Below are positions 6,752 to 27,808 of a stretch of 34,222 nt of DNA, piece after piece. Position 1 is the stretch's first letter. The number at the start of each line of letters is the position of its first letter. The notes beneath the pieces are model-generated. The model had not been told where the DNA came from. It ran no database searches and worked only from the letters and a program-made list of their open reading frames with translations. The position numbers and the translations under genes are program-made. Source of the DNA: Ilumatobacter sp. (GTDB lineage Bacteria; Actinomycetota; Acidimicrobiia; Acidimicrobiales; Ilumatobacteraceae); NCBI GenBank assembly GCA_013002175.1, contig JABDKP010000033.1, positions 1 through 34,222 on the forward strand, read 5' to 3'.

Positions 6752-7254
6752 GCACGCAGGCCCCCACGTCAGGACCGCAGCGGCTGGTCATCCTCGATCA
6801 GTCGATCAAGGTCCTCTACCAGTCGATCCTGGTGTTGTCGCTGTACTTCCTCTTCGCCGGCCACAACCTGCCGGGCGGCGGGTTCGTCGGCGGGTTGACC
6901 GCCGGCGCGGCGGTGTCGCTGCGGTACGTGTCGGGCGGAGCGATGGCCGTGCGTACGGCCTTCCGTCTCCCGTCGCACATCGTGCTGGGACTGGGCCTGC
7001 TCGTGTCAGCGGGAACCGCGCTGATACCGGTCGTGCTCGGCGGCGCGGTACTCGAGCACGGCGACCGCGAGGTCGGCCTTCCGATCTTCGGCGACGTCAA
7101 GTTCGTCAGCGCCCTCGCCTTCGACATCGGTGTCTACCTCGTCGTCGTCGGACTGGTGCTGATGGCGTTCGCCGCGTTCGGCGACGACCTCGGGCCGATC
7201 GAGTCGACCGCGCCGCCGGAGCCGCCCGATGGAACCGGTCGGGAGGCGTCGTGA
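6748..7254 (+). CDS. mrpB: Mrp Na+/H+ antiporter subunit B
   Basis: 168 residues starting at a TTG that overlaps the mrpA stop (TTGA). The MnhB/MrpB signature is clear: LVILDQSIKVLYQSILVLSLYFLFAGHN, then PGGGFVGGLTAGAAVSLRYVSGG. Four membrane spans are visible, with the last at about 125-145. The short N-terminal piece before ILDQSI is polar. Subunit B forms part of the membrane core with MrpA and MrpC. The start codon is unusual, but the overlap with mrpA and the family start leave no better choice. Confidence 0.9.
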   Translation: MSTQAPTSGPQRLVILDQSIKVLYQSILVLSLYFLFAGHNLPGGGFVGGLTAGAAVSLRYVSGGAMAVRTAFRLPSHIVLGLGLLVSAGTALIPVVLGGAVLEHGDREVGLPIFGDVKFVSALAFDIGVYLVVVGLVLMAFAAFGDDLGPIESTAPPEPPDGTGREAS

Positions 7255-7670
7255 GCGTCCTGCTGGCGTTCCTCGCCGCGGCGCTGTTCGGCACCGGGAC
7301 GTTCCTCCTGTTGCAGCGCCGGCTCTCGCGGATCATCATCGGGATCGGGCTGATCGGCCATGGCTCGAACGTGCTGCTGCTGACCTCGGGCGGCGGCCGC
7401 GGGCTGCCCCCGATCATCGACTCCGCCGATCCGACCGACTTCTCGGACCCGCTTCCGCAGGCACTCGCACTCACGTCGATCGTGATCACGTTCGGTGTCA
7501 CGGCGTTCCTGTTCGCACTCGGATACCGCAGCTGGAAGATCACCCACGACGACATCGTCGAGGACGACGTGGAGGACCGCTACATCGCGCGCCGCGTCGT
7601 CGTCGACCAGATGGTTGCCGAGGGTGAAGCCGCCGCGCGCGAGATCGAACTCGACGAGGATCGCGGATGA
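7251..7670 (+). CDS. mrpC: Mrp Na+/H+ antiporter subunit C
   Basis: 139 residues from a GTG at 7251 that overlaps the mrpB stop, with the Shine-Dalgarno-like GGGAGG at 7241-7246. It is a NuoK-like three-span protein: the N-terminal helix, then IIIGIGLIGHGSNVLLLTSGG, then PLPQALALTSIVITFGVTAFLFALGYR. The cytoplasmic tail of about 35 residues is rich in Asp/Glu (DDIVEDDVEDRY...EIELDED) and longer than in many MrpC proteins. Third gene of the operon. Confidence 0.92.
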   Translation: MSVLLAFLAAALFGTGTFLLLQRRLSRIIIGIGLIGHGSNVLLLTSGGGRGLPPIIDSADPTDFSDPLPQALALTSIVITFGVTAFLFALGYRSWKITHDDIVEDDVEDRYIARRVVVDQMVAEGEAAAREIELDEDRG

Positions 7671-9247
7671 TCGGCGCCGTGGACTTCGCGACGTGGGGCG
7701 GCCACCTGGCTGCTGACGCGCTCGCCCCCGACCGTGGCTCGATCGACGTGCTCGTCCCGTTTTCCGTGATCGTCCCGCTCGTCGCGGCCGCCGTCAGCGT
7801 CATCGCGGCCCGCAACCGCATCGCCCAACGGGTGATCGGCCTCGGGGCGCTGCTGGCGGTGCTCGTCGCGAACGTCGTGTTGCTCGTGCGGGTCGACGAC
7901 ATGGCCGAGGGGATCGCGGTGTCACAGGCCGGGGGCTGGGCCGCGCCACTCGGCATCTCGCTGGTCGTCGACCGACTCGCCGCGATCATGCTCGTCGTCT
8001 CGTCGCTGATGTTGGTGAGCGTGCTCGTGTTCGCGATCGGGCAACAGGCCGAGGAGCGCCGGTTCGCCGCGTTCCATCCGGTGTACCTCGTGCTCGCAGC
8101 CGGCGTGTCGGCGAGCTTCATCACCGGCGACCTGTTCAACCTGTTCGTCGCATTCGAGATGATGCTCGTCGCGAGCTACGTCCTGCTGACGCTCGGCGGG
8201 CGACCCGGCCAGGTCCGTTCGGGCATGTCCTACGTCGTGATCAGCCTGATCGCTTCGACGTTCTTCATCACCGCGCTCGCGCTCGTCTACTCGGCGACCG
8301 GGACCGTCAACATGGCCGAGTTGTCCGAGCGGATCCCGCAGCTTCCGAGTGGCGTGCAGACCGGCTTCTCGCTGCTGCTGATCATCGTGTTCGGGATCAA
8401 GGCCGGCCTCTTCCCGTTGTTCTTCTGGCTGCCCGACAGCTATCCCACCGCACCGAACGCGGTCACCGCGATCTTCGCCGGCCTGCTGACGAAAGTCGGC
8501 GTCTACGCGATCATCCGGACCCAGCTGCTGCTGTTCCCGGACGACGCCCGTCAGGGGACGCTGCTGCTCGTCGTCGCGGCGTTGACGATGATCACCGGCG
8601 TGCTCGGTGCGATCGCCCAGGACGACCTCCAGCGGATCCTGTCGTTCCACATCATCAGCCACATCGGCTACATGATCTTCGGTCTCGCACTGTTCACGCT
8701 CGCCGGCATCGCCGGAGCCATCTTCTACATCGTCCACCACATCGTCGTGAAGACCGCGCTGTTCCTCGTGGCGGGGATGATCGAACGCAAGGCGGGGTCC
8801 GACCGGCTGTCGCGCATCGGCGGGATGGTGCGCAGCGCGCCGATGATCGCAGTGTTGTTCGCGTTCCCCGCACTGAGCATCGTCGGCATCCCGCCGTTCT
8901 CCGGCTTCGTCGCGAAGTTCGCGCTCGTCGATGCTGGGATCTCGGTCGAACAGTGGCCGATCGTCGCGGTCGCGCTGGCGGTCAGCCTGTTGACGATGTA
9001 CGTGATGGGGCGGATCTGGGCCGGCGCCTTCTGGGGCACCTGCGAGGACGCCGCAGTCTCCGACCGGTTGCGTCCGGGCCAGACGAGGGTCCCCCTGCTG
9101 ATGACGCTCTCGACCGCGGTCGTGGTGGCGGCGTCGATTGCGCTCGTCGTCTTCGCCGGGCCGATGTACGACCTCGCAGAGCGGGCGGCCGTCGACCTGC
9201 TGGTGCCGCAGAACTACGTCCAGCAGGTGCTCGGAGCGACCAAGTGA
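7667..9247 (+). CDS. mrpD: Mrp Na+/H+ antiporter subunit D
   Basis: 526 residues, start ATG overlapping the mrpC stop (ATGA). It is the second large antiporter-like subunit, related to NuoM/NuoN. The essential glutamate is Glu164 in FNLFVAFEMMLVASYVLL. The conserved lysine block is FPLFFWLPDSYPTAPNAVTAIFAGLLTKVGVYAII. A second block around VHHIVVKTALFLVAGMIERKAGS is also present. About 14 membrane spans are visible by eye. It transports protons in the Mrp complex. Confidence 0.94.
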   Translation: MIGAVDFATWGGHLAADALAPDRGSIDVLVPFSVIVPLVAAAVSVIAARNRIAQRVIGLGALLAVLVANVVLLVRVDDMAEGIAVSQAGGWAAPLGISLVVDRLAAIMLVVSSLMLVSVLVFAIGQQAEERRFAAFHPVYLVLAAGVSASFITGDLFNLFVAFEMMLVASYVLLTLGGRPGQVRSGMSYVVISLIASTFFITALALVYSATGTVNMAELSERIPQLPSGVQTGFSLLLIIVFGIKAGLFPLFFWLPDSYPTAPNAVTAIFAGLLTKVGVYAIIRTQLLLFPDDARQGTLLLVVAALTMITGVLGAIAQDDLQRILSFHIISHIGYMIFGLALFTLAGIAGAIFYIVHHIVVKTALFLVAGMIERKAGSDRLSRIGGMVRSAPMIAVLFAFPALSIVGIPPFSGFVAKFALVDAGISVEQWPIVAVALAVSLLTMYVMGRIWAGAFWGTCEDAAVSDRLRPGQTRVPLLMTLSTAVVVAASIALVVFAGPMYDLAERAAVDLLVPQNYVQQVLGATK

Positions 9248-9819
9248 ACCGGTACGTCCGACTCCCGATGCTGCTGCTGTGGCTGACCACGCTGTGGATC
9301 GCGCTGTGGGGCGACCTGTCGCTCGGCAACGTCGTCGGAGGTTTCGCGGTGGCCGTCGGGGTCCTGATGGTGGCGCGTCCGACCGGTGTGTCCGGTCTCG
9401 AGCGTTACCACTTCCGGCCGGTCGCCGCCGTCCAGTACGGCCTGTACTTCCTCGCGCTGCTCGTCGTCTCGAACCTGATGGTCGCCTGGGAGATCGTGAC
9501 CCCGAAGACCCATCTGACGCGGGCGATCATCAGAGTTCCCATGCATTCGAGGTCCGCCGGCGTCGTCACACTGATCGCGAACTCGATCACGCTGACGCCG
9601 GGCACGATCACCGTGGACGTCGCCGAGCGCGACGACGACGGGACCGTTCGGCGCGACCTGTTCATCCACATCCTCCAGCTGGGAGACATCCCGTCGGTCA
9701 AGCGAGACATGCTCAAACTGGAACGCCTCGCGATCAAGGCATTCGGCGAGTCGGACGACCTCGCGGCGGTGGAGGCGACGTTGGCGGCGCTCGGCGACGA
9801 ACGGGAGATGTCCGGATGA
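9244..9819 (+). CDS. mrpE: Mrp Na+/H+ antiporter subunit E
   Basis: 191 residues from a GTG overlapping the mrpD stop. Hydrophobic N-terminal half with about three spans (LLLWLTTLWIALWGD, NVVGGFAVAVGVLMV, YGLYFLALLVVSNLMVAWEIV), then the soluble MrpE domain with the conserved block SRSAGVVTLIANSITLTPGTITVDV. In the family this domain is cytoplasmic and needed for complex stability. The C-terminal tail is acidic and helical. Confidence 0.92.
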   Translation: MNRYVRLPMLLLWLTTLWIALWGDLSLGNVVGGFAVAVGVLMVARPTGVSGLERYHFRPVAAVQYGLYFLALLVVSNLMVAWEIVTPKTHLTRAIIRVPMHSRSAGVVTLIANSITLTPGTITVDVAERDDDGTVRRDLFIHILQLGDIPSVKRDMLKLERLAIKAFGESDDLAAVEATLAALGDEREMSG

Positions 9820-17000: not shown

Positions 17001-17879
17001 TCAGTGCGGGCGGATCGACACCGGTTGCGAACCCGGCTGCGCGTCATCGTCTCCGGCGGTGAGTGTCACCTGGTCACCGACGTCGAGACCGAGTTCGGCG
17101 GCCGCGGATCGCTGATCCATGGCGACGGCGAGCATGCCGCTGGAGTCGACCACGAGGCCGACCGCCCCACCCGGCAGTTCCGCGTAGGACCTGGCCCGTC
17201 GCGCGCTGCGCGTCGTGCCCCCGGTCGGGTCGGTCGGCACGCTGAAGCGGATGTCGACGCGATCGCCGAACCGCTCGGAGAGGTCGGCCGGGCCGACGTT
17301 GAGTTGAGCGTTGCCGAACCGGTCGACCCAGAGCACCTGTGCGATCACGGTCGTGTCGTCGGCCTGCGGGAGCGGGACGACACCCGGCAGCAGCAGCCCG
17401 GCGTCGATCGGCTCGCCGAGTTCTGACAGGTCGACGCCGTTGCAGAGATGCGCGGCGGCCGGCGCGAACACGTCACGACCGGCGAACGTTGCGCCCACTG
17501 CCGGGAGTTGACGTTCGGTGTTGGTCAACTCGACCACCCGGCCGGCCCCGCCTGCCATCGACACCGCCGGCGCGAGCAGGCCGTTGTCGGGGCCGATCAG
17601 CACCCCCTCGCCGTCGGCGACCTCGATCGCGACGCCTCTGCGGGCGGACGCGACGCCGGGGTCGACGACCGCCAGCACCACCCCGGATGCGACGTAGCTG
17701 ATGCTGCGGGCGAGTGCGAGCGATCCGGCGCGGACGTCGAACGGGGCGATGCCGTGCGTCAGGTCGATGACGACCGCATGTGGGGCGATCTCACGGATCA
17801 CCGATTTCACGACGCCGACGAACTCGTCCTGGGTGCCGAAGTCGCTGAGAAAGGACACCGTCTCGTATGCGCGCGCCAC
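17001..17879 (-). CDS. S-adenosyl-L-methionine hydrolase (adenosine-forming), DUF62 family
   Basis: 292 residues from a GTG. This family uses hydroxide to split SAM into adenosine and methionine and is related to fluorinase and chlorinase. Blocks seen: FLSDFGTQDEFVGVVK (10-25), IDLTHGIAPFDVRAGSLAL (38-56), VVDPGVASARRG (71-82), GPDNGLL (96-102) and TFAGRDVFAPAAAHLCNG (131-148). Asp73, Arg80 and His144 are good candidates for the Asp-Arg-His triad described for archaeal SAM hydrolases. The halogenase-specific loop could not be judged by eye, so hydrolase is the default call. A TAGGTT box ends six bases before the start. It is divergent from ctaB. Confidence 0.88.
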   Translation of the reverse strand: MARAYETVSFLSDFGTQDEFVGVVKSVIREIAPHAVVIDLTHGIAPFDVRAGSLALARSISYVASGVVLAVVDPGVASARRGVAIEVADGEGVLIGPDNGLLAPAVSMAGGAGRVVELTNTERQLPAVGATFAGRDVFAPAAAHLCNGVDLSELGEPIDAGLLLPGVVPLPQADDTTVIAQVLWVDRFGNAQLNVGPADLSERFGDRVDIRFSVPTDPTGGTTRSARRARSYAELPGGAVGLVVDSSGMLAVAMDQRSAAAELGLDVGDQVTLTAGDDDAQPGSQPVSIRPH

Positions 17880-17885
17880 AGCGTG

Positions 17886-17891
17886 AACCTA
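17886..17891 (-). promoter_or_regulatory. -10 box of the DUF62 gene (leaderless)
   Basis: TAGGTT on the minus strand ending six bases before the GTG at 17879. Confidence 0.5.
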
Positions 17892-17941
17892 TCGGCACGC
17901 CGGCGCGCGAGTTGCCTGGAGCCGCGCGGTGTGTCACGTCG

Positions 17942-17947
17942 TACACT
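17942..17947 (+). promoter_or_regulatory. -10 box of a leaderless ctaB promoter
   Basis: TACACT ending seven bases before the ATG at 17955; the gap shared with the divergent DUF62 gene is only 75 bases. Confidence 0.55.
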
Positions 17948-17954
17948 CCACGGA

Positions 17955-18896
17955 ATGGCCGTCGGTTCCCGCCCACTCGTGCCGTCGCGGCTCGCGCCCG
18001 GCGGGCTCGGCCACGGGACGCGCCGCACACCGACGAGCGTGATCGGGTCGTACGTCGCGCTCACGAAGCCGCGGATCATCGAGCTGCTGCTGATCACCAC
18101 CGTTCCGACGATGGTGCTCGCGCAGCGGGGGTGGCCGGCGACGTCACTGGTGGCCGTCACGCTGCTCGGCGGAGCGCTGTCGGCCGGCGGCGCGAACGCG
18201 GTCAACATGTACGTCGACCGCGACATCGACGCCTTGATGCAGCGCACGCAGGAGCGACCGCTCGTCACCGGCGCGATCGCGCCGCGCAATGCGCTCGTGT
18301 TCGCCCTGGCACTGGAGGTCGTGGCGTTCGCAGTGCTGTGGGCCGGCGCCAACCTGCTGTCGGCGGTGCTCGCCCTGTCCGCGGCGGCGTTCTACATCGG
18401 GGTCTACACGTTGTGGCTGAAGCGCACGAGCCGCCAGAACATCGTCATCGGCGGCGCCGCCGGCGCGGTCCCCGTGCTGGTCGGGTGGACCGCCGTCCAG
18501 GATTCGCTGGCCTGGGCGCCGGTCGTGCTGTTCGTCGTGATGTTCCTGTGGACACCACCGCATTTCTGGGCGCTGGCCGTCAAGTACGCGGACGACTACC
18601 GGGCTGCGGACGTCCCGATGCTGCCATCGGTCGTCCCGCTGCCGCAGGCGGTTCGTCAGATGGTCTGGTACACGGTCGCGCTCGTCATCGCCACTCTGGT
18701 GCTCGTGCCGGTGGCCGATCTCGGCTGGATCTACGGGGTCGCCGCAGCGGTGCTGGGGGCGCTCTTCCTCGCCGGCACGATCGCCCTCGAGCGGCGCCCC
18801 ACGCCCGCGGCCAGCATGCGCCTCTTCGGCTTCTCGATCACTTATGTCACGCTGCTGTTCGCGGCGATGACCGTGGACGTGTTCGTCGGCAGGTGA
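17955..18896 (+). CDS. ctaB: Protoheme IX farnesyltransferase (heme O synthase)
   Basis: 313 residues; attaches a farnesyl group to heme b to make heme O, the precursor of heme A for the oxidase encoded downstream. It is a UbiA-type prenyltransferase with about nine spans. The first Asp-rich motif is N84-x3-D88-x3-D92 (in NMYVDRDIDALMQRT), and the second is in the KYADDYRAADVPMLP region. LTKPRIIELLLITTVPTM and FLWTPPHFWALA are also typical. The start is the ATG at 17955, with a TACACT box seven bases upstream; the longer frame upstream is antisense to DUF62. It is separated from the oxidase operon by 180 bases. Confidence 0.94.
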   Translation: MAVGSRPLVPSRLAPGGLGHGTRRTPTSVIGSYVALTKPRIIELLLITTVPTMVLAQRGWPATSLVAVTLLGGALSAGGANAVNMYVDRDIDALMQRTQERPLVTGAIAPRNALVFALALEVVAFAVLWAGANLLSAVLALSAAAFYIGVYTLWLKRTSRQNIVIGGAAGAVPVLVGWTAVQDSLAWAPVVLFVVMFLWTPPHFWALAVKYADDYRAADVPMLPSVVPLPQAVRQMVWYTVALVIATLVLVPVADLGWIYGVAAAVLGALFLAGTIALERRPTPAASMRLFGFSITYVTLLFAAMTVDVFVGR

Positions 18897-19076: not shown

Positions 19077-20729
19077 ATGACCACCATTGACCCAACCTCC
19101 GATGCCGTCGGCCACGCGGGCGACCGCTCCGATGATGTCGCGGCGGCCGACAGCCGGGCTGAACTGCTGCTCGCAGGAATCGCCGACTGGTTGACGTCCA
19201 CCGATCACAAGCGGATCGGCCGGCTGTTCCTGGGCGGCGGCTTCATCGGGCTGCTCGCCACCGCCATCGTCAACATCGTGCTCGGCATCGAGCGAGGCGA
19301 CATCGCCACCGTCGACGGCGACGCAATCGCCCAACTGCTCGATGCCCAACGGGTCGGCCTGGTGTTCGGCACGCTGTTGCCGCTGTCGCTGGGGCTGTGC
19401 ATCGCGGTCGTTCCGCTGCAACTCGGTGCCCGCTCGCTCGCCTTTCCCCGTCTCGCCGCGACCGGCTTCTGGATGTGGGTCGGCGGCCTCGTGTTCAGCG
19501 TGATCGCCCTCGTCAACGACGGTGGCGGCCTCGGCGGCGATGCCGACATGGTCGACCTGTTCATCGCCTCCCACGGCCTGATGGCGATCGGGCTCACCGC
19601 CGCCGCCGGCTCGATCGCCACGAGCGTGCTCACCACCCGTGCCCCGGGCATGACGATGCGGCGGGTGCCGTTCTTCTCGATGTCGGCCCTGATCACTGCG
19701 CTCGGCCTGCTCCTCGTGATGCCGGTCCTGCTCGGCACGCTGACCTACCTGTTCCTCGACCACCGCAACGCGCGTACCGGTTTCGGCGGCAACACCGGCA
19801 TCTACGAGTGGGCGTTGTGGGTGTTCACGCAGCCGACGACGTTCCTGTTCGCAATCCCCGCGATCGGCGTGCTCGCCGAAGGCGCCCCGCTGCTGTTCCG
19901 CCTGCGGACGCCGGCGCGTGGCGTGATGTTCGCAGGGCTCGGGCTGATCGGCGTGGCCGCGTTCACCGGTGTCGCCCAGCAGTCGGTGCACAACCTGCCG
20001 TGGGCCGGCAGCGACCTCTACATCGGTGGCGGCGACGACCTCCGCGACAAGCTGGCCGACGCAGTGCCGTGGGCGATGTTCAATCTCCTGCCGCTGCTCG
20101 GTCTCGTGGTCGTCGTGCTGATGTCGCTGTTCCTCGCCAAGCCGGTCAAGGGTGCCCGACCGAATCTCTCGCCGGCGTTCGCGTTCGGGTTCCTCGGCGC
20201 CGGGATGGTCCTCATGGGCATGCTCGGCACGGCCCTGTTCGCCATTGACGATCTCGCGCTCCAGGGCACCGTCTTCGAAGAGGGTGCGCTGATCTACGTC
20301 ACCTACGGGGCAGCGCTCGGGATCATGGGCGGCGTTGCGTTCTGGGCTCCCAAGCTGTGGGGCCGGACGCTGCCCGCAGGCCAACTGTTGCCGCTCGCCG
20401 GGCTCGGGTTGATCGCCACCGTGCTGGCTTCGCTGCCGAGCTACGTCGAGGGCTTCGACACGTCGCGAGACATCTACAGCATCGCCGTCCTCGCCGGCCA
20501 CGTGCTGATGGCGCTGACCGCCCTGGCGTTCGTCGCCCTGCTCGCCACGACGCTGCGCAACGATGACGCCGACCACGCCGACGACCCGTACGACGCCCAG
20601 ACGCTGGAGTGGACGACACCGTCGCCTGCGCCGCACGGCAACTTCGTCGATGTCCCCACGGTGATGTCGGCCGAGCCGCTGCTCGACATCAAGCCGACCG
20701 CCTCGACCACGACCGGGAGTGATGCGTGA
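19077..20729 (+). CDS. Degenerate heme-copper oxidase subunit I homolog lacking all six metal-ligand histidines
   Basis: 550 residues, about 12 spans. It clearly belongs to the oxidase subunit I family. TSTDHKRIGRLF (40-51) matches the TVDHKKIG start of CtaD. PLQLGARSLAFPRL (113-126) and TTRAPGMTMRRVPFFSMSAL (186-205) match conserved loops, and QTLEWTTPSPAPHGNF (508-523) matches the CtaD C-terminal block. Aligned by eye with the ctaD at 23810, every catalytic ligand is gone. The low-spin heme histidine is Gln91. The CuB histidine of the GHPEVY motif is Gln252 and its cross-linked tyrosine is Phe256. The CuB His-His pair is Gln301-Gln302. The two histidines of HFH are Ala404 and Ile406. The frame is intact, so it is a maintained gene, not a pseudogene. 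It should not bind heme or reduce oxygen; a structural, assembly or regulatory role is inferred. The weak ribosome site AAAAGTGAG lies upstream. Confidence 0.85.
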   Translation: MTTIDPTSDAVGHAGDRSDDVAAADSRAELLLAGIADWLTSTDHKRIGRLFLGGGFIGLLATAIVNIVLGIERGDIATVDGDAIAQLLDAQRVGLVFGTLLPLSLGLCIAVVPLQLGARSLAFPRLAATGFWMWVGGLVFSVIALVNDGGGLGGDADMVDLFIASHGLMAIGLTAAAGSIATSVLTTRAPGMTMRRVPFFSMSALITALGLLLVMPVLLGTLTYLFLDHRNARTGFGGNTGIYEWALWVFTQPTTFLFAIPAIGVLAEGAPLLFRLRTPARGVMFAGLGLIGVAAFTGVAQQSVHNLPWAGSDLYIGGGDDLRDKLADAVPWAMFNLLPLLGLVVVVLMSLFLAKPVKGARPNLSPAFAFGFLGAGMVLMGMLGTALFAIDDLALQGTVFEEGALIYVTYGAALGIMGGVAFWAPKLWGRTLPAGQLLPLAGLGLIATVLASLPSYVEGFDTSRDIYSIAVLAGHVLMALTALAFVALLATTLRNDDADHADDPYDAQTLEWTTPSPAPHGNFVDVPTVMSAEPLLDIKPTASTTTGSDA

Positions 20730-21304
20730 TGGAAGCCCTCGCCGCCGGCCCCGCCCCGGCTCCCCGCCGCCAGTTGATCGTCGGTTCGGCGCTCGCGTCG
20801 GTCGCGATGTTGATGCTGACCGGCGGCATGCTCGCCGTCTGGTCGTTGCAGCGTCGCCGCACGGTCGACCTCGGCGAGACCTGGCTGCCGAGCGGCGTCA
20901 CCGTGCCCGAGGTGCCGGTCAACGTCACGCTCCTCGCCTTCATCGGCATCTGCACGTTCGCCCAGTGGGCGGTCTACGCGGCCAAGCGTGGCGACCGTGC
21001 CCATACGGCGTTCGCGCTCGCCGTCACCGTGCTGACGGCGGTGATGGTGATCAACGCCCAGGCGTTCATCTACTCGGAGATGGGGCTCGGCATCGGCGAC
21101 GGCACATACGCGGCGATGTTCTACGCCGTGACCGGGATGTTCCTCGCGCTGATGACGATCGGCGTGATTCTCGCCGCCGTCGCCGCCTTCCGCTTCCTGG
21201 GCGGCCGGAGCGATCGTGAGATCGTCGCCGCCCACGCCATCTACTGGTACACCGTCGCCATCATCTTCTCGGCCATCTGGTTCGTCGTCTACGTCACGAA
21301 ATGA
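20729..21304 (+). CDS. Oxidase subunit III-like membrane protein (shadow module)
   Basis: 191 residues from the ATG at 20729, which overlaps the previous stop; a GTG one codon earlier is also possible. About five hydrophobic spans. It looks like a distant paralog of the ctaE product at 25809. The final helices align as IYWYTVAIIFSAIWFVVYV against LYWHFVDIVWIIIFTLVYL. The conserved His of YWHF is Tyr here, and the GFHGVH motif is replaced by a plain hydrophobic stretch. An extra loop follows span one (QRRRTVDLGETWLPSGVTVPEVPVN). It pairs with the ligand-less subunit I just upstream. The family call is by alignment of hydrophobic pattern and the last helix, so it is less sure than its neighbours. 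Confidence 0.65.
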   Translation: MEALAAGPAPAPRRQLIVGSALASVAMLMLTGGMLAVWSLQRRRTVDLGETWLPSGVTVPEVPVNVTLLAFIGICTFAQWAVYAAKRGDRAHTAFALAVTVLTAVMVINAQAFIYSEMGLGIGDGTYAAMFYAVTGMFLALMTIGVILAAVAAFRFLGGRSDREIVAAHAIYWYTVAIIFSAIWFVVYVTK

Positions 21305-21312
21305 CCCGCTGA

Positions 21313-22506
21313 ATGTTCACCACAGGTTCCAAACTCCTCATCGGTTCGTCGGTCCTCGCAACGCTTGCGGCGATCGTCTACGGCGTCACGCAGGTGGACT
21401 CGCTGGGCATCGTCGGGCTCACGTCGGCGGCGATCGCCCTGGCGTTTCTCGCCGGCGTCAACGTCTGGGCACGGGATTCCAACGTGTCGTCGATGGACAG
21501 TACTGCCGTCGCCACGGCCGAGGCTGCCGACGCACCGCCGGGCGCCAGCATCTGGCCGATGGTGTTCGCGGTCGGCGCAGCGACCGCGCTGCTCGGCCTC
21601 GTCACGCAACAGTCGATCTTCACGATCGGGCTCGTCGTCGCCTTCTCCGCCGGTGCCCAGTGGATGATCCAGGCGTGGGCCGAAGCGGCGTCGCCTGACG
21701 CAGCGGTGGCGACCCATGTCCGCAGCCGACTGGCGAACCCGCTCGAGTACCCGCTGCTCGGTGCAGTCGCGGTCGGCGCGATCGCGTTCTCGTTCAGCCG
21801 GGTGATGCTGTGGCTGTCGAAGACGAACACCGTGATTGCGTTCGTCGTGCTCGCTGCGGTTGTCGCCGGCATCGCGTTCTACTTCGCCTTCCGTCCGTCG
21901 GTCACGAGCGGCGCGATCGGTGGCGCCCTGGCCGTCTTCGCGATCGCGGTCGTCGCCGGAGGCGTCGCGGCGGGCGTCGACGGGCAACGTGACATCCACG
22001 TCCACGAGACCACCGCCGACCTCGCGCTGGAAGGGCACTGCGACAGTCCGGACGAGTTCGAGCCGGACGAGAAGGCGAGCCAGACCGTCGCGGCCAAGTC
22101 CAGCCTGGCCGCCGAGGTCATCCTCACCGAGTCCGGCGAGCTCGAATTCGACGTGCCCGGCCCGATCGAATCAGGTGGTCTCGGCCTGACGCTGCCACGG
22201 GCCAACCCGAACAACATCCTGTTCCGCAACGAGTCCGGCGAGCACCGCCGGCTCACCGTGGATCTCGGGCCGTTGTCCGAGGACGAGATCGCCGAACTCG
22301 AGGAAGCCGCCGCGGAGGACTCGCACGGCGAGGAGGCCCACGTGTCCGAGCGTCGCCAGATCTGCACGACGCTGATCGAAGAGGGCAGTGTGCAGCTGCT
22401 CACGCTGATCATCGCCGAGCCGAGCCTGCCCTACGACGACGACCCGGAGGCATACCGGTTCTTCGTGCCCGGCACCGACGCCGAGCTGAACCTGGTGGTG
22501 CCATGA
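21313..22506 (+). CDS. Subunit IV-like membrane protein with extracytoplasmic cupredoxin-like domain (shadow module)
   Basis: 397 residues. About seven spans occupy residues 7-25, 30-52, 80-98, 100-120, 146-166, 172-193 and 198-222. The first four, with a polar loop at 53-79, resemble actinobacterial oxidase subunit IV (CtaF). Residues 224-397 form an acidic soluble domain, probably outside the membrane. NPNNILFRNESGEHRRLTVDLG and the C-terminal YRFFVPGTDAELNLVV follow a cupredoxin pattern, but the usual C-x-x-PGH-x-x-M copper site is replaced by VPGTDAEL. Two cysteines (243, 351) could form a disulfide. Its stop overlaps the ctaC start (ATGA), tying it to the working oxidase operon. Function unknown; the cupredoxin reading is a suggestion. 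Confidence 0.6.
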   Translation: MFTTGSKLLIGSSVLATLAAIVYGVTQVDSLGIVGLTSAAIALAFLAGVNVWARDSNVSSMDSTAVATAEAADAPPGASIWPMVFAVGAATALLGLVTQQSIFTIGLVVAFSAGAQWMIQAWAEAASPDAAVATHVRSRLANPLEYPLLGAVAVGAIAFSFSRVMLWLSKTNTVIAFVVLAAVVAGIAFYFAFRPSVTSGAIGGALAVFAIAVVAGGVAAGVDGQRDIHVHETTADLALEGHCDSPDEFEPDEKASQTVAAKSSLAAEVILTESGELEFDVPGPIESGGLGLTLPRANPNNILFRNESGEHRRLTVDLGPLSEDEIAELEEAAAEDSHGEEAHVSERRQICTTLIEEGSVQLLTLIIAEPSLPYDDDPEAYRFFVPGTDAELNLVVP

Positions 22507-23774
22507 GTCTCGATCGCACGCCCCGGAACGAGCGCACAAGCATGCAGGTCGCGAAATCCACAACTACCTTCGATGCCGTGAATCCTGGTCGCCTCGCACG
22601 TCTCGGCTCCGTGGCGATGCTCGCCGCGCTCGTCGCCGGTTGTGCCAACGACGCTCCGCAGGACACGTGGCAACCGGCGGGCGAGAATGCCCAGAAGATC
22701 CATGATCTCCAGTGGCCGGTCTTCCTGGTCGCCGGTCTCGTCGGCGTCGCCGTGTTCGGTGTGTTGTTCTACGCCCTCTGGCGCTACCGCGACACCGGGC
22801 AGCCGATCCCGAAGCAGATCCACGGCCGCCCGAAGCTCGAGATCGGTCTGACGATCCTGCCGGCGGTGATCCTGATCTTCGTCGCCGTCCCCACCGTCGG
22901 CACGCTGATCGACCTCGCCGACACCGATGACACCGACTGCATCATCAACGTCACCGGACAGCAGTGGTGGTGGGAGATCGACTACCCGGTACAGGACGGA
23001 TGCGGCGGGATCTCCGAGCCGATCATCACATCCGGCCAGATGGTGATCGAGGTCGGCACCAACGTGATCGTGCGGGGCACGAGCCGCGACGTGATCCACT
23101 CGTGGTGGATCCCGCGCCTCAACGGCAAGCGGGACATGGTCCCCGGCCGCGTCCACACGAACCGCCTGCAGGCCGAAGCGCCCGGCATCTACGCCGGCCA
23201 GTGCACCGAGTTCTGCGGGCTGAGCCATGCCAACATGCGGATGGAAGTCATCGCGATGGAGCACGACGACTTCGAGGCGTGGAAGGCCAACCAGCTGGAG
23301 GCCTACGCCGCCCCCGAACCCGAGTCGCTCGCAGCCGAGGGCGAGAGCACGTTCATCTCCCAGTGCGCCCGCTGTCACCAGGTCAACGGTCTGGAGAACA
23401 GCGACGGCGAGCTGATCATCGCCAGGCCCGACCTCAATGTGTGGTCGGGTGCCGCTCCGAATCTCACCAAGCTGATGACCCGCAACACGTTCGCGGGCGC
23501 GTCGTTCGACCTGCTCAGCGACGTCTGCCGCCCGCTCGTCTGGGAGGCGCCGTCCGACCTGGTGGGCGAGCGGTACAACGAAGGTGTGTCCGCCGACTGC
23601 CTCAATGAGGTCGACCTGCGCGAGTGGTTGCGCAATCCGCCGGCGAAGAAGCCGATGTACACCGACCCGACGAAGCTCGAAGCGACCAACGGCCTGCCCC
23701 GTGGCATGCCCTTCCTTGCGCTCAGCGAGGACCAGATCGATCAGCTGATCGCCTATCTCCTGGAACGCAAGTGA
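22503..23774 (+). CDS. ctaC: Cytochrome c oxidase subunit II with fused cytochrome c domain (caa3 type)
   Basis: 423 residues. A lipoprotein signal is present (LVAGC, lipid-anchored Cys47), then two spans (about 71-93, 114-135). The CuA domain ligands are His199, Cys234, Glu236, Cys238, His242 and Met245 (GQCTEFCGLSHANM). The aromatic electron-entry patch is QQWWWEID (153-160). A fused cytochrome c domain follows, with CxxCH at Cys288-Cys291-His292 and a likely axial Met402 in GMPFLAL. Cys146/Cys167 and Cys342/Cys366 are extra pairs that could form disulfides. The ATG overlaps the previous stop. The heme fusion indicates a caa3-type enzyme that takes electrons through its own cytochrome c domain. 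Confidence 0.94.
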   Translation: MSLDRTPRNERTSMQVAKSTTTFDAVNPGRLARLGSVAMLAALVAGCANDAPQDTWQPAGENAQKIHDLQWPVFLVAGLVGVAVFGVLFYALWRYRDTGQPIPKQIHGRPKLEIGLTILPAVILIFVAVPTVGTLIDLADTDDTDCIINVTGQQWWWEIDYPVQDGCGGISEPIITSGQMVIEVGTNVIVRGTSRDVIHSWWIPRLNGKRDMVPGRVHTNRLQAEAPGIYAGQCTEFCGLSHANMRMEVIAMEHDDFEAWKANQLEAYAAPEPESLAAEGESTFISQCARCHQVNGLENSDGELIIARPDLNVWSGAAPNLTKLMTRNTFAGASFDLLSDVCRPLVWEAPSDLVGERYNEGVSADCLNEVDLREWLRNPPAKKPMYTDPTKLEATNGLPRGMPFLALSEDQIDQLIAYLLERK

Positions 23775-23809: not shown

Positions 23810-25816
23810 ATGGCCATCATCGAACGCCCGGCCGACGTGCCCGCCGTCGTGGTGCCGACGCCGACGGCATCGACCAACTTCGGTTACTTCCGGCGCCCGG
23901 TCGAGACGACCGGCTGGAAGTCGTGGGCCTTCACGGTCGACCACAAGAAGATCGGCATCATGTACGGCGTCGCCGCGATGTTCTTCTTCCTCGTCGGCGG
24001 ACTCGAGGCCGGGTTGATCCGTTGGCAGCTCGCCCAGGCGGACGGCACGATCCTGTCGGCCGACAAGTACAACCAGATGTTCACGATGCACGCGACCACG
24101 ATGGTCTTCCTGTTCGTGATGCCGATGGCGGCCGCGTTCGCCAACTACTTCATCCCGTTGCAGGTCGGCGCTCGTGACGTCGCCTTCCCGCGGCTCAACG
24201 CGCTCAGCCTGTGGGTGTTCATCTTCGGCGGAGTCTTCCTGAACACGTCGTGGTTCCTCGGCGGCGCAGCCGACGGTGGCTGGTTCATGTACGCGCCGAA
24301 CAGCTCCGGCATCTTCTCGCCCAGCAATGGCGTCGACTTCTGGGCGCTCGGCCTGCAGATCACCGGCATCGCGTCACTGGTCGGTGCGATCAACCTGATC
24401 GTGACGGTGCTCAACATGCGCGCCCCCGGCATGTCGATGATGCGGATGCCGATCTTCACGTGGATGGCCTTCGTCGTGCAGATGCTGCTGCTCTTCGCGA
24501 TCCCGGTGATCACCGTGGCGCTGTTCCTGCTGATGTTCCAGCGCTCGTACGGTGCGACGTTCTTCTCGGTCGAGGCCGGTGCGGACCCGTTGCTGTGGCA
24601 GCACCTGTTCTGGATCTTCGGGCATCCCGAGGTGTACATCCTCGTGTTGCCGAGCTTCGGCATCATCTCCGAGGTGCTGCCGGTGTTCTCCCGCAAGCCG
24701 CTGTTCGGCTACCCGTTCGTCGTGTTCTCCGGCGCGGCCATCGGCTTCGTCGGGTGGGGCGTGTGGGCGCACCACATGTTCGCCTCCGGCCTCGGCCCGG
24801 TGTCGGTCGCGGTGTTCTCGGTGGCCACGATGGCAATCGCCGTGCCGACCGGCGTCAAGATCATCAACTGGACGCTCACGGTCTGGGGCGGCAAGTTGTG
24901 GTTCACGACGGCGATGCTGTTCGCCATCGGCCTGATCGTGCAGTTCACGATCGGCGGCCTGTCGGGTGTCACCCACGCGGTCGCACCGTCGGACACGCAG
25001 CAGACCGACACGTACTACATCGTCGCCCACTTCCACTACGTGATCTTCGGCGGGGCGGTGCTCGGGCTGTTCGCCGGTTTCTACTACTGGTGGCCGAAGG
25101 TGTTCGGCAAGTTGCTCAGCGAGACCCTCGGCAAGTGGAACTTCTGGCTGATGATCATCGGGATGAACCTGACGTTCGGCCCGATGCACATCCTCGGGTT
25201 GCAGGGTCAGCCGCGCCGGATGTACATCTGGACCGACTATCGCGCCGGCGAGGGCTTCTTCAACCTCGGGTTCTGGAACCTGATCGCCTCGCTGGGCACG
25301 ATCGTGCTGGGCGTCGGGATCTTCATGTTCCTCGTCAACGTCTGGGTCACCCATCGTCCGGGCAGCACGACCCTCGCGGCACCGGAAGACCCGTGGGACG
25401 CACGCAGCCTCGAGTGGATGTCGACGTCGCCGCCGAAGCCGCACAACTACGACCGCACGCCGATCGTCCACGACCTCGACGAGTTCTTCCACCGCAAGTA
25501 CGAAGACGTCGGCGAGGGCGACGACCACGACTACGTATTGCGGGCGTCCGGTGCCGAGGTCATCGCGGAGGAAGAGCGCAACGCCGATGCGCACATCCAC
25601 CTCCCGGCGCCGTCGTACTGGCCGATCGTGCTCGCCGCGGCGCTGCCGATCATGGCGTACGGCGTGATCTACAACACCCTGCTGATCGTCGCCGGGGCCG
25701 CCGTCGCGGTGATGGCGATGTTCGGCTGGGCGCTCGAGCCAGCCGACGCCGAGCCGTCGGACTTCGATCCGCCGCCGCCCGAACCCGCGACCGGAACGGA
25801 GCTCGCCAATGTCTGA
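23810..25816 (+). CDS. ctaD: Cytochrome c oxidase subunit I (catalytic, aa3 type)
   Basis: 668 residues with about 14 spans. All ligands are present: heme a His94 and His409, heme a3 His407, CuB His272, His321 and His322, and the cross-linked Tyr276 (GHPEVY). Lys350 (PTGVKIINW) marks the K proton path. Asp124 in VGARDVAFPR lies at the D-path entry position. About 110 extra C-terminal residues include two more spans (612-632, 635-655) and a Pro/Asp-rich end. These may replace part of another subunit. It reduces oxygen to water and pumps protons. It begins 35 bases after ctaC and overlaps ctaE by eight bases. Confidence 0.95.
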   Translation: MAIIERPADVPAVVVPTPTASTNFGYFRRPVETTGWKSWAFTVDHKKIGIMYGVAAMFFFLVGGLEAGLIRWQLAQADGTILSADKYNQMFTMHATTMVFLFVMPMAAAFANYFIPLQVGARDVAFPRLNALSLWVFIFGGVFLNTSWFLGGAADGGWFMYAPNSSGIFSPSNGVDFWALGLQITGIASLVGAINLIVTVLNMRAPGMSMMRMPIFTWMAFVVQMLLLFAIPVITVALFLLMFQRSYGATFFSVEAGADPLLWQHLFWIFGHPEVYILVLPSFGIISEVLPVFSRKPLFGYPFVVFSGAAIGFVGWGVWAHHMFASGLGPVSVAVFSVATMAIAVPTGVKIINWTLTVWGGKLWFTTAMLFAIGLIVQFTIGGLSGVTHAVAPSDTQQTDTYYIVAHFHYVIFGGAVLGLFAGFYYWWPKVFGKLLSETLGKWNFWLMIIGMNLTFGPMHILGLQGQPRRMYIWTDYRAGEGFFNLGFWNLIASLGTIVLGVGIFMFLVNVWVTHRPGSTTLAAPEDPWDARSLEWMSTSPPKPHNYDRTPIVHDLDEFFHRKYEDVGEGDDHDYVLRASGAEVIAEEERNADAHIHLPAPSYWPIVLAAALPIMAYGVIYNTLLIVAGAAVAVMAMFGWALEPADAEPSDFDPPPPEPATGTELANV

Positions 25817-26504
25817 TTCGGTGATCTCCGACACGGTCAAGGACGCGATCGACATCGTCAAGGACCACGCCGACGACGTCCATGACCACGACGTGCACGC
25901 CGGCGACGTCGCCGACGATCACGGCGACCACGGCGGTCACCATTCGTCGCTCGGGTTGTCGAACACGAAGCTCGCGATGTGGTTGTTCCTCGGGTCCGAG
26001 TGCCTGCTGTTCGGTGGCCTGATCTCCACCTACATGCTGTATCGCAACCGGCACTCGGCGAACCTCGGCCCCGACCAGTTGTGGGACATCCCGTTCACGT
26101 CGGCGTCCAGCTTCGTGCTGCTGACGTCGTCGTTGACGATGGTGCTGGCCGTGTCGGCCGCAACCCGCGGCGACCTCCGCCGCACGAAGATCTTCCTGAC
26201 GGTCACCGCCCTCCTCGGCGGCCTGTTCGTCGCCGGGCAGATCTATGAGTTCACGACGTTCTACCGCGAGGGGCTCGGGTTCACGACGAGCCTGTTCTCG
26301 TCGAGCTTCTTCACGCTCACCGGCTTCCACGGCGTCCACGTGTCGGTCGGCATCATCATGCTGATCGCACTCGTCGGCATGCTGTCGAAGAACAAAGTCT
26401 CAGGCGACAACGCCGAGACGGTCGAGATGGTCGGCCTCTACTGGCACTTCGTCGACATCGTCTGGATCATCATCTTCACGCTCGTCTACCTGATTCCGGC
26501 CTGA
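25809..26504 (+). CDS. ctaE: Cytochrome c oxidase subunit III
   Basis: 231 residues. The first 48 residues are soluble and very His/Asp-rich (eight His between 20 and 45). Five spans follow, with family blocks KLAMWLFLGSECLLFGGLIS, QIYEFTTFYREGLGF, FFTLTGFHGVHVSVGI and GLYWHFVDIVWIIIFTLVYL. The five-span form is usual for this branch. The start lies within the end of ctaD, so translation is coupled. The His-rich N-terminus is on the cytoplasmic side and could bind metal; this is not a common feature of subunit III. Confidence 0.94.
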   Translation: MSDSVISDTVKDAIDIVKDHADDVHDHDVHAGDVADDHGDHGGHHSSLGLSNTKLAMWLFLGSECLLFGGLISTYMLYRNRHSANLGPDQLWDIPFTSASSFVLLTSSLTMVLAVSAATRGDLRRTKIFLTVTALLGGLFVAGQIYEFTTFYREGLGFTTSLFSSSFFTLTGFHGVHVSVGIIMLIALVGMLSKNKVSGDNAETVEMVGLYWHFVDIVWIIIFTLVYLIPA

Positions 26505-26507
26505 CCC

Positions 26508-26858
26508 ATGACTGAGACACATTCCCCGACCGACGACGAGATTCTCGCCGCGACGCCGCACGCCGACGAGAAGCACGACAACCTGCACGGCCCGACCGAC
26601 AAGCAGTTCATCGTCATCTTCGTCGTCCTCGCCGTCGTCACCAGTGTCGAAGTGGCGATCAGCTACGCGGACATCGGCCCGTTGTTCCTGCCGGTGCTGC
26701 TGCTGCTGATGGTCGCCAAGTTCTTCGGCGTCGTCTGGTACTTCATGCACGTCAAGTTCGACCACCAGCTCTTCGGTCGGTTGTTCTACATCGGCCTCGG
26801 GCTCGCGGCCGGCGTGTACGTCATCATGCTCACCACGTTCCGGTTCTTCGGAGCCTGA
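26508..26858 (+). CDS. Cytochrome c oxidase subunit IV (prokaryotic COX4 type)
   Basis: 116 residues, start three bases after the ctaE stop. A polar N-terminus of about 30 residues is rich in His, Asp and Glu. Three spans follow, near residues 34-54, 58-80 and 88-108. The motif KFFGVVWYFMHVKFDHQLFGRLFYIGLGLA is typical of prokaryotic subunit IV. It is a small accessory subunit that stabilises the CuB site region. Confidence 0.88.
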   Translation: MTETHSPTDDEILAATPHADEKHDNLHGPTDKQFIVIFVVLAVVTSVEVAISYADIGPLFLPVLLLLMVAKFFGVVWYFMHVKFDHQLFGRLFYIGLGLAAGVYVIMLTTFRFFGA

Positions 26859-26896: not shown

Positions 26897-27808
26897 ATGG
26901 CCCCGGTCACCCAGGCGTCTCTCGACGTCGATCCCTGGAAATTCCAGTGGCACCCGGAAGTGTGGGTGCTGGTCGCGTTCCTCACCGGCGCGTTCGTCTA
27001 CATGGTGCGCGTGATCGGGCCGCGGGCGGTACCGGCCGGCGAACCCGTCGTCACCAGGCGCAACCTGTACGCGTTCGTCGGGGCGATGGCGATGCTGTGG
27101 GTCGCCAGCGATTGGCCGCTGCACGACATCTCCGAGGAGTACCTGTACTCCGCGCACATGCTCCAGCACATGATGCTCAGCTACTTCCTGCCGCCGCTGG
27201 CGCTGCTGGCGACGCCACCCTGGCTGCTGCGTGTGCTGATCGGCGACGGGCGGCTCTATCGGGCGACCGCGTTCCTCGCGCGGCCGGTCGTCGCCGGTGT
27301 GCTGTTCAACGTCGTCGTGATGGTGACCCACATCCCGCTCGTCGTCACTGCGTCGGTCGAGAGCGGGCCGCTGCACTACTCCCTGCATGCCGCGGTCGTG
27401 CTGCTGTCACTGCTGATGTGGATGCCGGTCGTCGGACCGATCCGCGAGTGGCATCTCGGTCCGCTCGGCAAATGCATCTACCTGTTCCTCCAGTCGGTCG
27501 TGCCGACGGTCCCGGCGGCGTGGCTGACGTTCGCGGACGGCGCGGTGTACCAGAGCTACGACATCCCGGTGCGGGTGTTCGGGTGGAGCGTCACCGTCGA
27601 CCAGCAGCTCGCCGGCGCGATCATGAAGACCGGTGGATCGATCTTCCTCTGGTCGATCGTGGTGTACATCTTCTTCGCCCGGTTCGCGAGCGGCTACGGC
27701 AGATCCCAGGACTACCGGCGCGATCCGGTCGCCGATCGTCCGCTCACGACCGCCGACGTCGAGCGCGAGTTCGCCAGTTCGCACGCACCGACGGATCGCC
27801 GGCCGTAG
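26897..27808 (+). CDS. ctaG: Cytochrome c oxidase assembly protein, Caa3_CtaG family
   Basis: 303 residues, seven spans. Members of this family are needed to assemble caa3-type oxidase, probably by delivering copper to CuB. Typical blocks are FQWHPEVWVLVAFL at the N-terminus, SAHMLQHMMLSYFLPPLALLATP (about 75-97), THIPLVV and HYSLHAAVVLLSLLMWMPVVGP. The His and Met residues in HMLQHMM are likely metal ligands. The C-terminal tail (about 268-303) is Arg-rich and polar. It closes the oxidase operon. Confidence 0.92.
   Translation: MAPVTQASLDVDPWKFQWHPEVWVLVAFLTGAFVYMVRVIGPRAVPAGEPVVTRRNLYAFVGAMAMLWVASDWPLHDISEEYLYSAHMLQHMMLSYFLPPLALLATPPWLLRVLIGDGRLYRATAFLARPVVAGVLFNVVVMVTHIPLVVTASVESGPLHYSLHAAVVLLSLLMWMPVVGPIREWHLGPLGKCIYLFLQSVVPTVPAAWLTFADGAVYQSYDIPVRVFGWSVTVDQQLAGAIMKTGGSIFLWSIVVYIFFARFASGYGRSQDYRRDPVADRPLTTADVEREFASSHAPTDRRP

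Follow-up and report, generated by a model that had tools for sequence, protein, structure and literature searches.

The 34,222-nucleotide stretch of Ilumatobacter DNA analysed here (the window) contains a caa3 oxidase operon that includes three additional genes, encoding a subunit I-like protein, a subunit III-like protein and a protein we call X (Table 1). This three-gene module sits between ctaB and ctaC-D-E-F-G, with the gene for the subunit I paralogue first. From the paralogue through ctaD, adjacent genes overlap by 4 bases or stand within 40 bases of each other, and the 4-base overlaps suggest that the operon is read as a single transcript; a promoter scan returned nothing informative. 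The C-terminal extension of the window CtaD (residues 599-643) matches Cyt_c_ox_IV, so that the active subunit I carries a fused subunit IV-like piece.

Table 1 Genes and sites of the oxidase operon and its three-gene module in the window
Feature	Position	Strand	Evidence
ctaB-like gene of the UbiA family (open frame; ctaB as used here begins near 18036)	17448..18896	+	Pfam UbiA 205.8 bits, residues 214-462
COX1-like pseudo-subunit I, 550 aa, without heme or CuB ligands	19077..20729	+	Alignments, Pfam, AlphaFold2, Foldseek, tree
Codons 251-256 (TQPTTF)	19827..19844	+	At the GHPEVY site of CtaD (CuB ligand His272, Tyr276)
Codons 301-302 (QQ)	19977..19982	+	Opposite the CtaD CuB pair His321/His322 in larger alignments; pairwise alignment differs
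Subunit III-like, 192 aa, 4-base overlap with the preceding paralogue gene	20726..21304	+	Pfam COX3 54 bits; synteny
Protein X, 397 aa: membrane part weakly Cyt_c_ox_IV-like plus C-terminal cupredoxin-fold domain	21313..22506	+	Pfam, AlphaFold2, Foldseek
ctaC, subunit II with fused cytochrome c	22503..23774	+	
ctaD, active-type subunit I, all ligands present	23810..25816	+	Pfam COX1 507 bits; alignments
ctaE, subunit III	25809..26504	+	Pfam COX3 70.3 bits
ctaF-like, subunit IV	26508..26858	+	Pfam COX4_pro 38.9 bits
ctaG-like caa3 assembly factor	26897..27808	+	Pfam Caa3_CtaG 121.6 bits

It is the metal sites that define heme-copper oxidases. The initial annotation had described the paralogue gene as an intact frame lacking the six metal ligands and the cross-linked tyrosine, a description borne out by its match to Pfam COX1 (81.6 bits against a cut-off of 34.8), which establishes homology to that family, and by alignments and structure prediction. 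In place of the low-spin heme histidine pair, the paralogue has Gln91 and Ile406, the heme a3 histidine is replaced by Ala404 and the cross-linked tyrosine by Phe256. Pairwise and multiple alignments agree on the paralogue/CtaD pairs Gln91/His94, Gln252/His272, Phe256/Tyr276, Ala404/His407 and Ile406/His409. The CuB pair His321/His322 falls opposite Gly310-Ser311 in the pairwise alignment and opposite Gln301-Gln302 in larger multiple alignments. The latter placement, which is also that of the initial annotation, is better supported because intermediate relatives (GAWAQ or GAFAQ) bridge the motifs of CtaD (GVWAHH) and the window (TGVAQQ), and neither placement puts a histidine at this pair. The AlphaFold2 model of the paralogue, built with 58 sequences, is helical (mean pLDDT 90.5, pTM 0.91), and its first ten PDB matches in Foldseek are subunit I of bo3, aa3 and caa3 oxidases (query TM 0.74-0.78). 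Four COX1-family matches, the window paralogue among them, were found in its own genome. On a separate contig of 3,272 bases in that genome lies a second X-ctaC-ctaD copy (L171, contig C162), with a ctaD 82% identical to that of the window, which is either a second operon or related-strain DNA in the bin.

The residues equivalent to D132, N139, E286 and K362 are Ser, Ala, Thr and Val in the alignment (for D132, E286 and K362 we assume the Rhodobacter numbering of D- and K-channel residues), and both propionate arginine positions fall in an alignment gap. D132 is substituted in all 106 derived paralogues tabulated. The replaced D- and K-channel residues thus leave proton conduction, one of the roles first proposed for this protein, without support as far as the classical routes are concerned. 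The four polar replacements at the ligand positions are all Gln (91, 252, 301 and 302), not three of four as first counted. The related proposal of a patterned glutamine replacement holds for two positions, as Gln252 and Gln301 are conserved (47 and 50 of 58 aligned homologues, respectively), whereas Gln91 (7 of 58) and Gln302 (13 of 58) are local and positions 404 and 406 vary. A strict all-Gln code is ruled out, as Gln is common at only two positions among the 58 homologues. Perhaps Gln252 and Gln301, at former CuB positions, serve to close the empty cavity.

To place the gene among its relatives, we collected COX1-like frames lacking His at CtaD column 272 and obtained 131 distinct paralogues. 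Among 120 paralogue frames of at least 450 aa, 10 with an identical core and then 1 more were removed, and shorter fragments were left out. Selection on this criterion makes the lack of the His272 ligand a given; the coincidence of the set with one clade is an independent result. In a tree from which the ligand columns and their four neighbours on either side were excluded, the 131 paralogues formed a single clade with support of 1.0, and no His272-bearing sequence fell inside it. All six histidines and the tyrosine were present in 115 of 117 CtaD-type sequences, with the other two masked or cut there. Of the three CuB histidines, each paralogue has at most one, and the 7 that have one of the other two may owe it to alignment chance. 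The heme histidines are less uniformly lost: 7 of the 131 retain all three, 6 retain only the low-spin pair and 118 have fewer, comprising 100 without any, 13 with only the first and 5 with other combinations. Within the clade of 73 that includes the window paralogue, 66 have no heme histidine and 7 only the first. On one side of the deepest split all 8 members retain the heme pair, a grouping with support of 0.19 when L184 is included and 0.998 for the 7 without it; several deep branches are poorly supported (0.19-0.77), including places at the base of the paralogue clade. The sisters L118 and L162 keep the first low-spin histidine and the heme a3 histidine and have lost the second low-spin histidine, a pattern at odds with a simple order of loss.

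The membrane part of protein X weakly resembles Cyt_c_ox_IV, with a Pfam score of 19.9 bits that is below the cut-off of 26.9. The AlphaFold2 model of X has a pTM of 0.50 overall, with residues 261-397 in blocks of pLDDT 78-94, and the top Foldseek matches were auracyanin (E 2.2e-5) and Cupredoxin_1, indicating a cupredoxin fold; the Cys-His-Met copper motif (CxxHxxM) was not found in the window X. Six relatives (L043, L044, L046, L047, L185 and L189) carry a GRPE/GRPD motif, in which Arg replaces the CuB histidine and the adjacent acidic residue is kept, and in each of these X ends in a type-1 copper motif. A Pfam cupredoxin domain was detected in X of all five copper-motif loci scanned, four above the cut-off and one (L046) below it. 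In their membrane parts, X of the window family and X of the copper-motif relatives are one and the same protein (hhalign 99.9%). Between their C-terminal domains hhalign found no sequence match (probability 2.8%), and the likeness is by fold alone. In several other loci (L107, L109, L116, L117, L132 and others) the cupredoxin domain is gone and X instead ends in a His/Asp/Glu-rich tail, which might bind metal loosely.

Across the clade, the copper motif of X goes with the heme ligands of the paralogue. A type-1 copper motif was present in X of 8 of the 13 loci with the low-spin histidine pair and in none of the 84 loci without it, with 34 X sequences not fetched and some of those scored as motif-less truncated at contig ends (for example, L038, L072, L073, L076, L077 and L097); common descent of the sequences means that these counts are not independent trials. 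The motif is missing from five of the 13 heme-pair loci, one of which (L130) has all three heme histidines, and L052 has GRPE, yet its X lacks the motif. One further X with an intact copper motif lies at a contig start with the upstream module cut off (L177, genome G036); it is outside these counts and is probably another early-type module. From this association, together with the ligand states, the module seems to be descended from a CuB-less heme/blue-copper form that lost its metals stepwise. We infer both the order of the losses and the binding of heme and copper in the intermediates.

To assess how widespread the paralogue is, we searched related genomes. Some COX1 match to the paralogue query, ordinary CtaD included, was found in 58 of 60 relatives. 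Our sample of the order Acidimicrobiales comprised 59 genomes, 35 of which have a CtaD of this operon type. The paralogue was found in 34 of these 35, and in the remaining one (G129) the contig begins inside the III-like gene. In 31 of the 35, the paralogue match shares contig and strand with ctaD and starts 4.1-5.1 kb upstream of it; in G387 it lies 9.4 kb upstream, and in G021 and G047 it is on another contig. A same-genus relative (G006) carries a paralogue lacking all ligands (L009) in the same operon (L172). Among the 24 genomes without this ctaD type, G058 and G410 carry the paralogue, the ctaD of G410 being cut at a contig end and operon-type CtaD being absent from G058, and G039 has a divergent paralogue below the threshold (L052). 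The others of the 24 gave matches mostly below about 390 bits, with CtaD-like scores, and were read for ligands in part; the ligands are complete in all low-scoring loci of the order that were read (L151, L156, L157, L173-L175, L179, L180 and L187). In searches of the class and the phylum (119 and 246 genomes, respectively), all matches above 450 bits among those listed were within the order and the best outside it scored 413 bits, with weak paralogues overlapping ordinary CtaD in score (for example, 324 bits in G053). Six loci outside the order that were read (L147-L150, L165 and L166) each have the six histidines and the tyrosine. Thus, the paralogue is likely to be absent outside Acidimicrobiales.

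The gene order ctaB, paralogue, III-like, X, ctaC, ctaD, ctaE, ctaF, ctaG recurs in most homologous loci with enough flanking sequence. The exceptions are L038, which lacks ctaC and ctaD nearby; L184, with a 4.7-kb gap ahead of ctaC; and L052, in which BLAST found no III-like gene. In L038 (G058, about 6000-8200), the X frame is 144 aa long and stops beside opposite-strand ABC transporter-like genes, perhaps as a result of misassembly, the other reading being a real break-up of the operon. The roughly 4.7 kb between X and ctaC in L184 (G387, about 4860-9550), a heme-pair-retaining member, contain no match to a protein of the operon. Of 86 loci examined for it, 84 encode a CtaC with both a CuA-type motif and CxxCH, which gives the true oxidase an electron entry of its own.

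The paralogue is under purifying selection. Against three relatives, dN/dS was 0.20, 0.20 and 0.28 for the paralogue and 0.12, 0.11 and 0.19 for ctaD, with values of 0.16, 0.20 and 0.29 for the III-like gene and 0.19, 0.23 and 0.26 for X (a simple counting method, with synonymous distances of 0.35-1.10 for the four genes). Sixty columns are invariant across 14 diverse homologues. Many of the residues that the window family conserves belong to cytoplasmic motifs also found in real oxidases, around DHKxIG, PLQxGAR, FPR, RAPGM, WxPKxxG, TLEW and NF. Columns at least 90% conserved in CtaD are kept in at least 80% of paralogues at 31 of 66 positions in the inner (cytoplasmic) half and 8 of 55 in the outer half (Fisher p 0.0002, with sites that are not independent and a topology assigned from the helices of the model), although loss in the outer half would be expected even without docking of the inner face because the catalytic residues of CtaD cluster there. 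The paralogue of the window lineage looks metal-free and yet retained, having lost its catalytic residues and kept its sequence under selection as a pseudoenzyme does. That it is a ligand-free pseudo-enzyme maintained by selection had been proposed at the outset and is upheld by the 131 relatives in one clade, their conserved synteny and the dN/dS of 0.20-0.28. It occurs in nearly all sampled genomes with this ctaD type, and by far the most copies have long frames. The initial interpretation had missed that the III-like protein and X belong with it, that X has a motif-less cupredoxin domain and that some relatives are intermediate forms with heme ligands and a blue-copper motif. A pseudogene or an assembly error is ruled out by the 131 homologues, one of which comes from a 99% complete genome in a single contig.

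Collectively, our results lead us to favour, with somewhat better than even confidence, a reading in which the window protein is the core of a three-protein pseudo-oxidase module, metal-free and permanently partnered, in a non-catalytic role, with the caa3 oxidase of its operon. On this view, a duplicated oxidase core would first have lost CuB, with the heme ligands and the type-1 copper motif on X still present; heme a3 would then have been lost, and later the low-spin heme and blue copper, in several lineages. The window lineage would be left metal-free, with no electron path. The paralogue and the III-like protein would keep much of the shared cytoplasmic face and dock onto or stabilize the CtaC-D-E complex, and the module would act like the catalytically silent half of a heterodimer with the caa3 oxidase. 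Binding to CtaD, a stabilizing role and the absence of metal from the window protein are all predictions of this model.

The main rival, which we regard as unlikely, is an assembly factor: the module would hold CtaD or its cofactors only while the oxidase is being built and be no part of the finished enzyme. Its place after ctaB and ahead of ctaC, in an operon with ctaG at the far end, would suit such a role, as would its empty ligand sites and partly kept cytoplasmic face, but a twelve-helix protein with two partners would presumably be large for a chaperone, and the intermediates resemble redox proteins rather than chaperones. The module might also form a separate membrane complex that has only the transcript in common with the oxidase, such as a transporter or a conduit for ions or protons. 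The I-like, III-like and weakly IV-like proteins make up a self-sufficient set, and G058 has the module without this ctaD type. We nevertheless consider this quite unlikely, given that the paralogue is paired with ctaD in 34 of 35 genomes and that the D132, N139, E286 and K362 equivalents are replaced, with the propionate arginine positions in a gap.

Slightly less credence again goes to a cofactor still bound through other residues, such as a quinone or a heme with non-classical ligands. The conservation of Gln252 and Gln301 at two former CuB positions would be in keeping with this idea, as would the quinone described at the subunit I-subunit I interface of the Aquifex oxidase (PMC8251803), but the ligand columns of the window's clade of 73 hold no conserved histidine. 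A decaying duplicate heading for loss is scarcely tenable, even though the ligands are lost, the paralogue evolves faster than ctaD and a few copies look broken (two in-frame TGA codons in L033 and a split frame in L103 and L017). That most copies by far have long open frames, together with the dN/dS of 0.20-0.28 and the 60 invariant columns, speaks against decay for the family as a whole. A role of the module in replacing complex III is unsupported and improbable, because cytochrome b matches (PF13631) were found in all 11 genomes tested, 8 of them paralogue carriers (G000, G006, G037, G041, G043, G044, G048 and G052) and 3 without sign of the paralogue (G029, G056 and G071); NrfD matches were found in 6 of the 11.

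The preferred reading, a silent partner of the caa3 oxidase, can be extended to a bolder proposal that we advance only tentatively, as somewhat doubtful. Some Acidimicrobiales may harbour a living, undescribed class of CuB-less heme-copper oxidase, in which electrons would pass from the blue copper of X to a low-spin heme and, in 7 of the 131 paralogues, also to a high-spin heme. The class would serve alongside the true oxidase as a redox relay or a gas sensor, and most of its descendants, including that of the window, would have become the metal-stripped, silent half of a two-core oxidase.

This branch of the family is widespread in one bacterial order, where its metal sites have seemingly been lost stepwise, and yet it has been kept, with intermediates still present. 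It thereby provides a natural series in which to study the role of the oxidase scaffold beyond its chemistry and the order in which a bioenergetic metalloenzyme can be dismantled, and it bears on whether an oxidase could operate as an asymmetric complex of two cores. Genes of this kind may well be labelled cytochrome c oxidase subunit I by automatic annotation, in which case oxidases would be miscounted in metagenomes. Among the best-ranked literature matches, judged by title and the start of the abstract and with most subscription papers outside the scope, we found no earlier description of a ligand-free COX1 paralogue or module, and neither is mentioned in the passages of PMC8239418 and PMC9145763 that were consulted.

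Compared with known systems, the window paralogue is closest to subunit I of A-family oxidases (CtaD/CoxA of aa3 and caa3 enzymes), with which it shares sequence homology, fold, cytoplasmic loop motifs and operon neighbours, but unlike them it has no heme ligands, CuB ligands, cross-linked tyrosine or D- and K-channel residues. In cytochrome bd oxidase, CydB is homologous to the heme-bearing subunit, has none of its hemes and forms a pair with it. The window paralogue is likewise a homologue that appears to lack the cofactors, but CydB belongs to an unrelated family and the pairing of the window paralogue is a proposal. The blue copper proteins auracyanin and Cupredoxin_1 share the cupredoxin fold with the model of the window X, and CxxHxxM occurs in eight of its relatives; unlike these blue copper proteins, the window X lacks the copper motif and is fused to a membrane domain. 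Finally, PMC8251803 describes a subunit I-subunit I homodimer in the Aquifex aeolicus oxidase, a precedent for such contact in a heme-copper oxidase, although that enzyme is of the B family and both of its halves are active.
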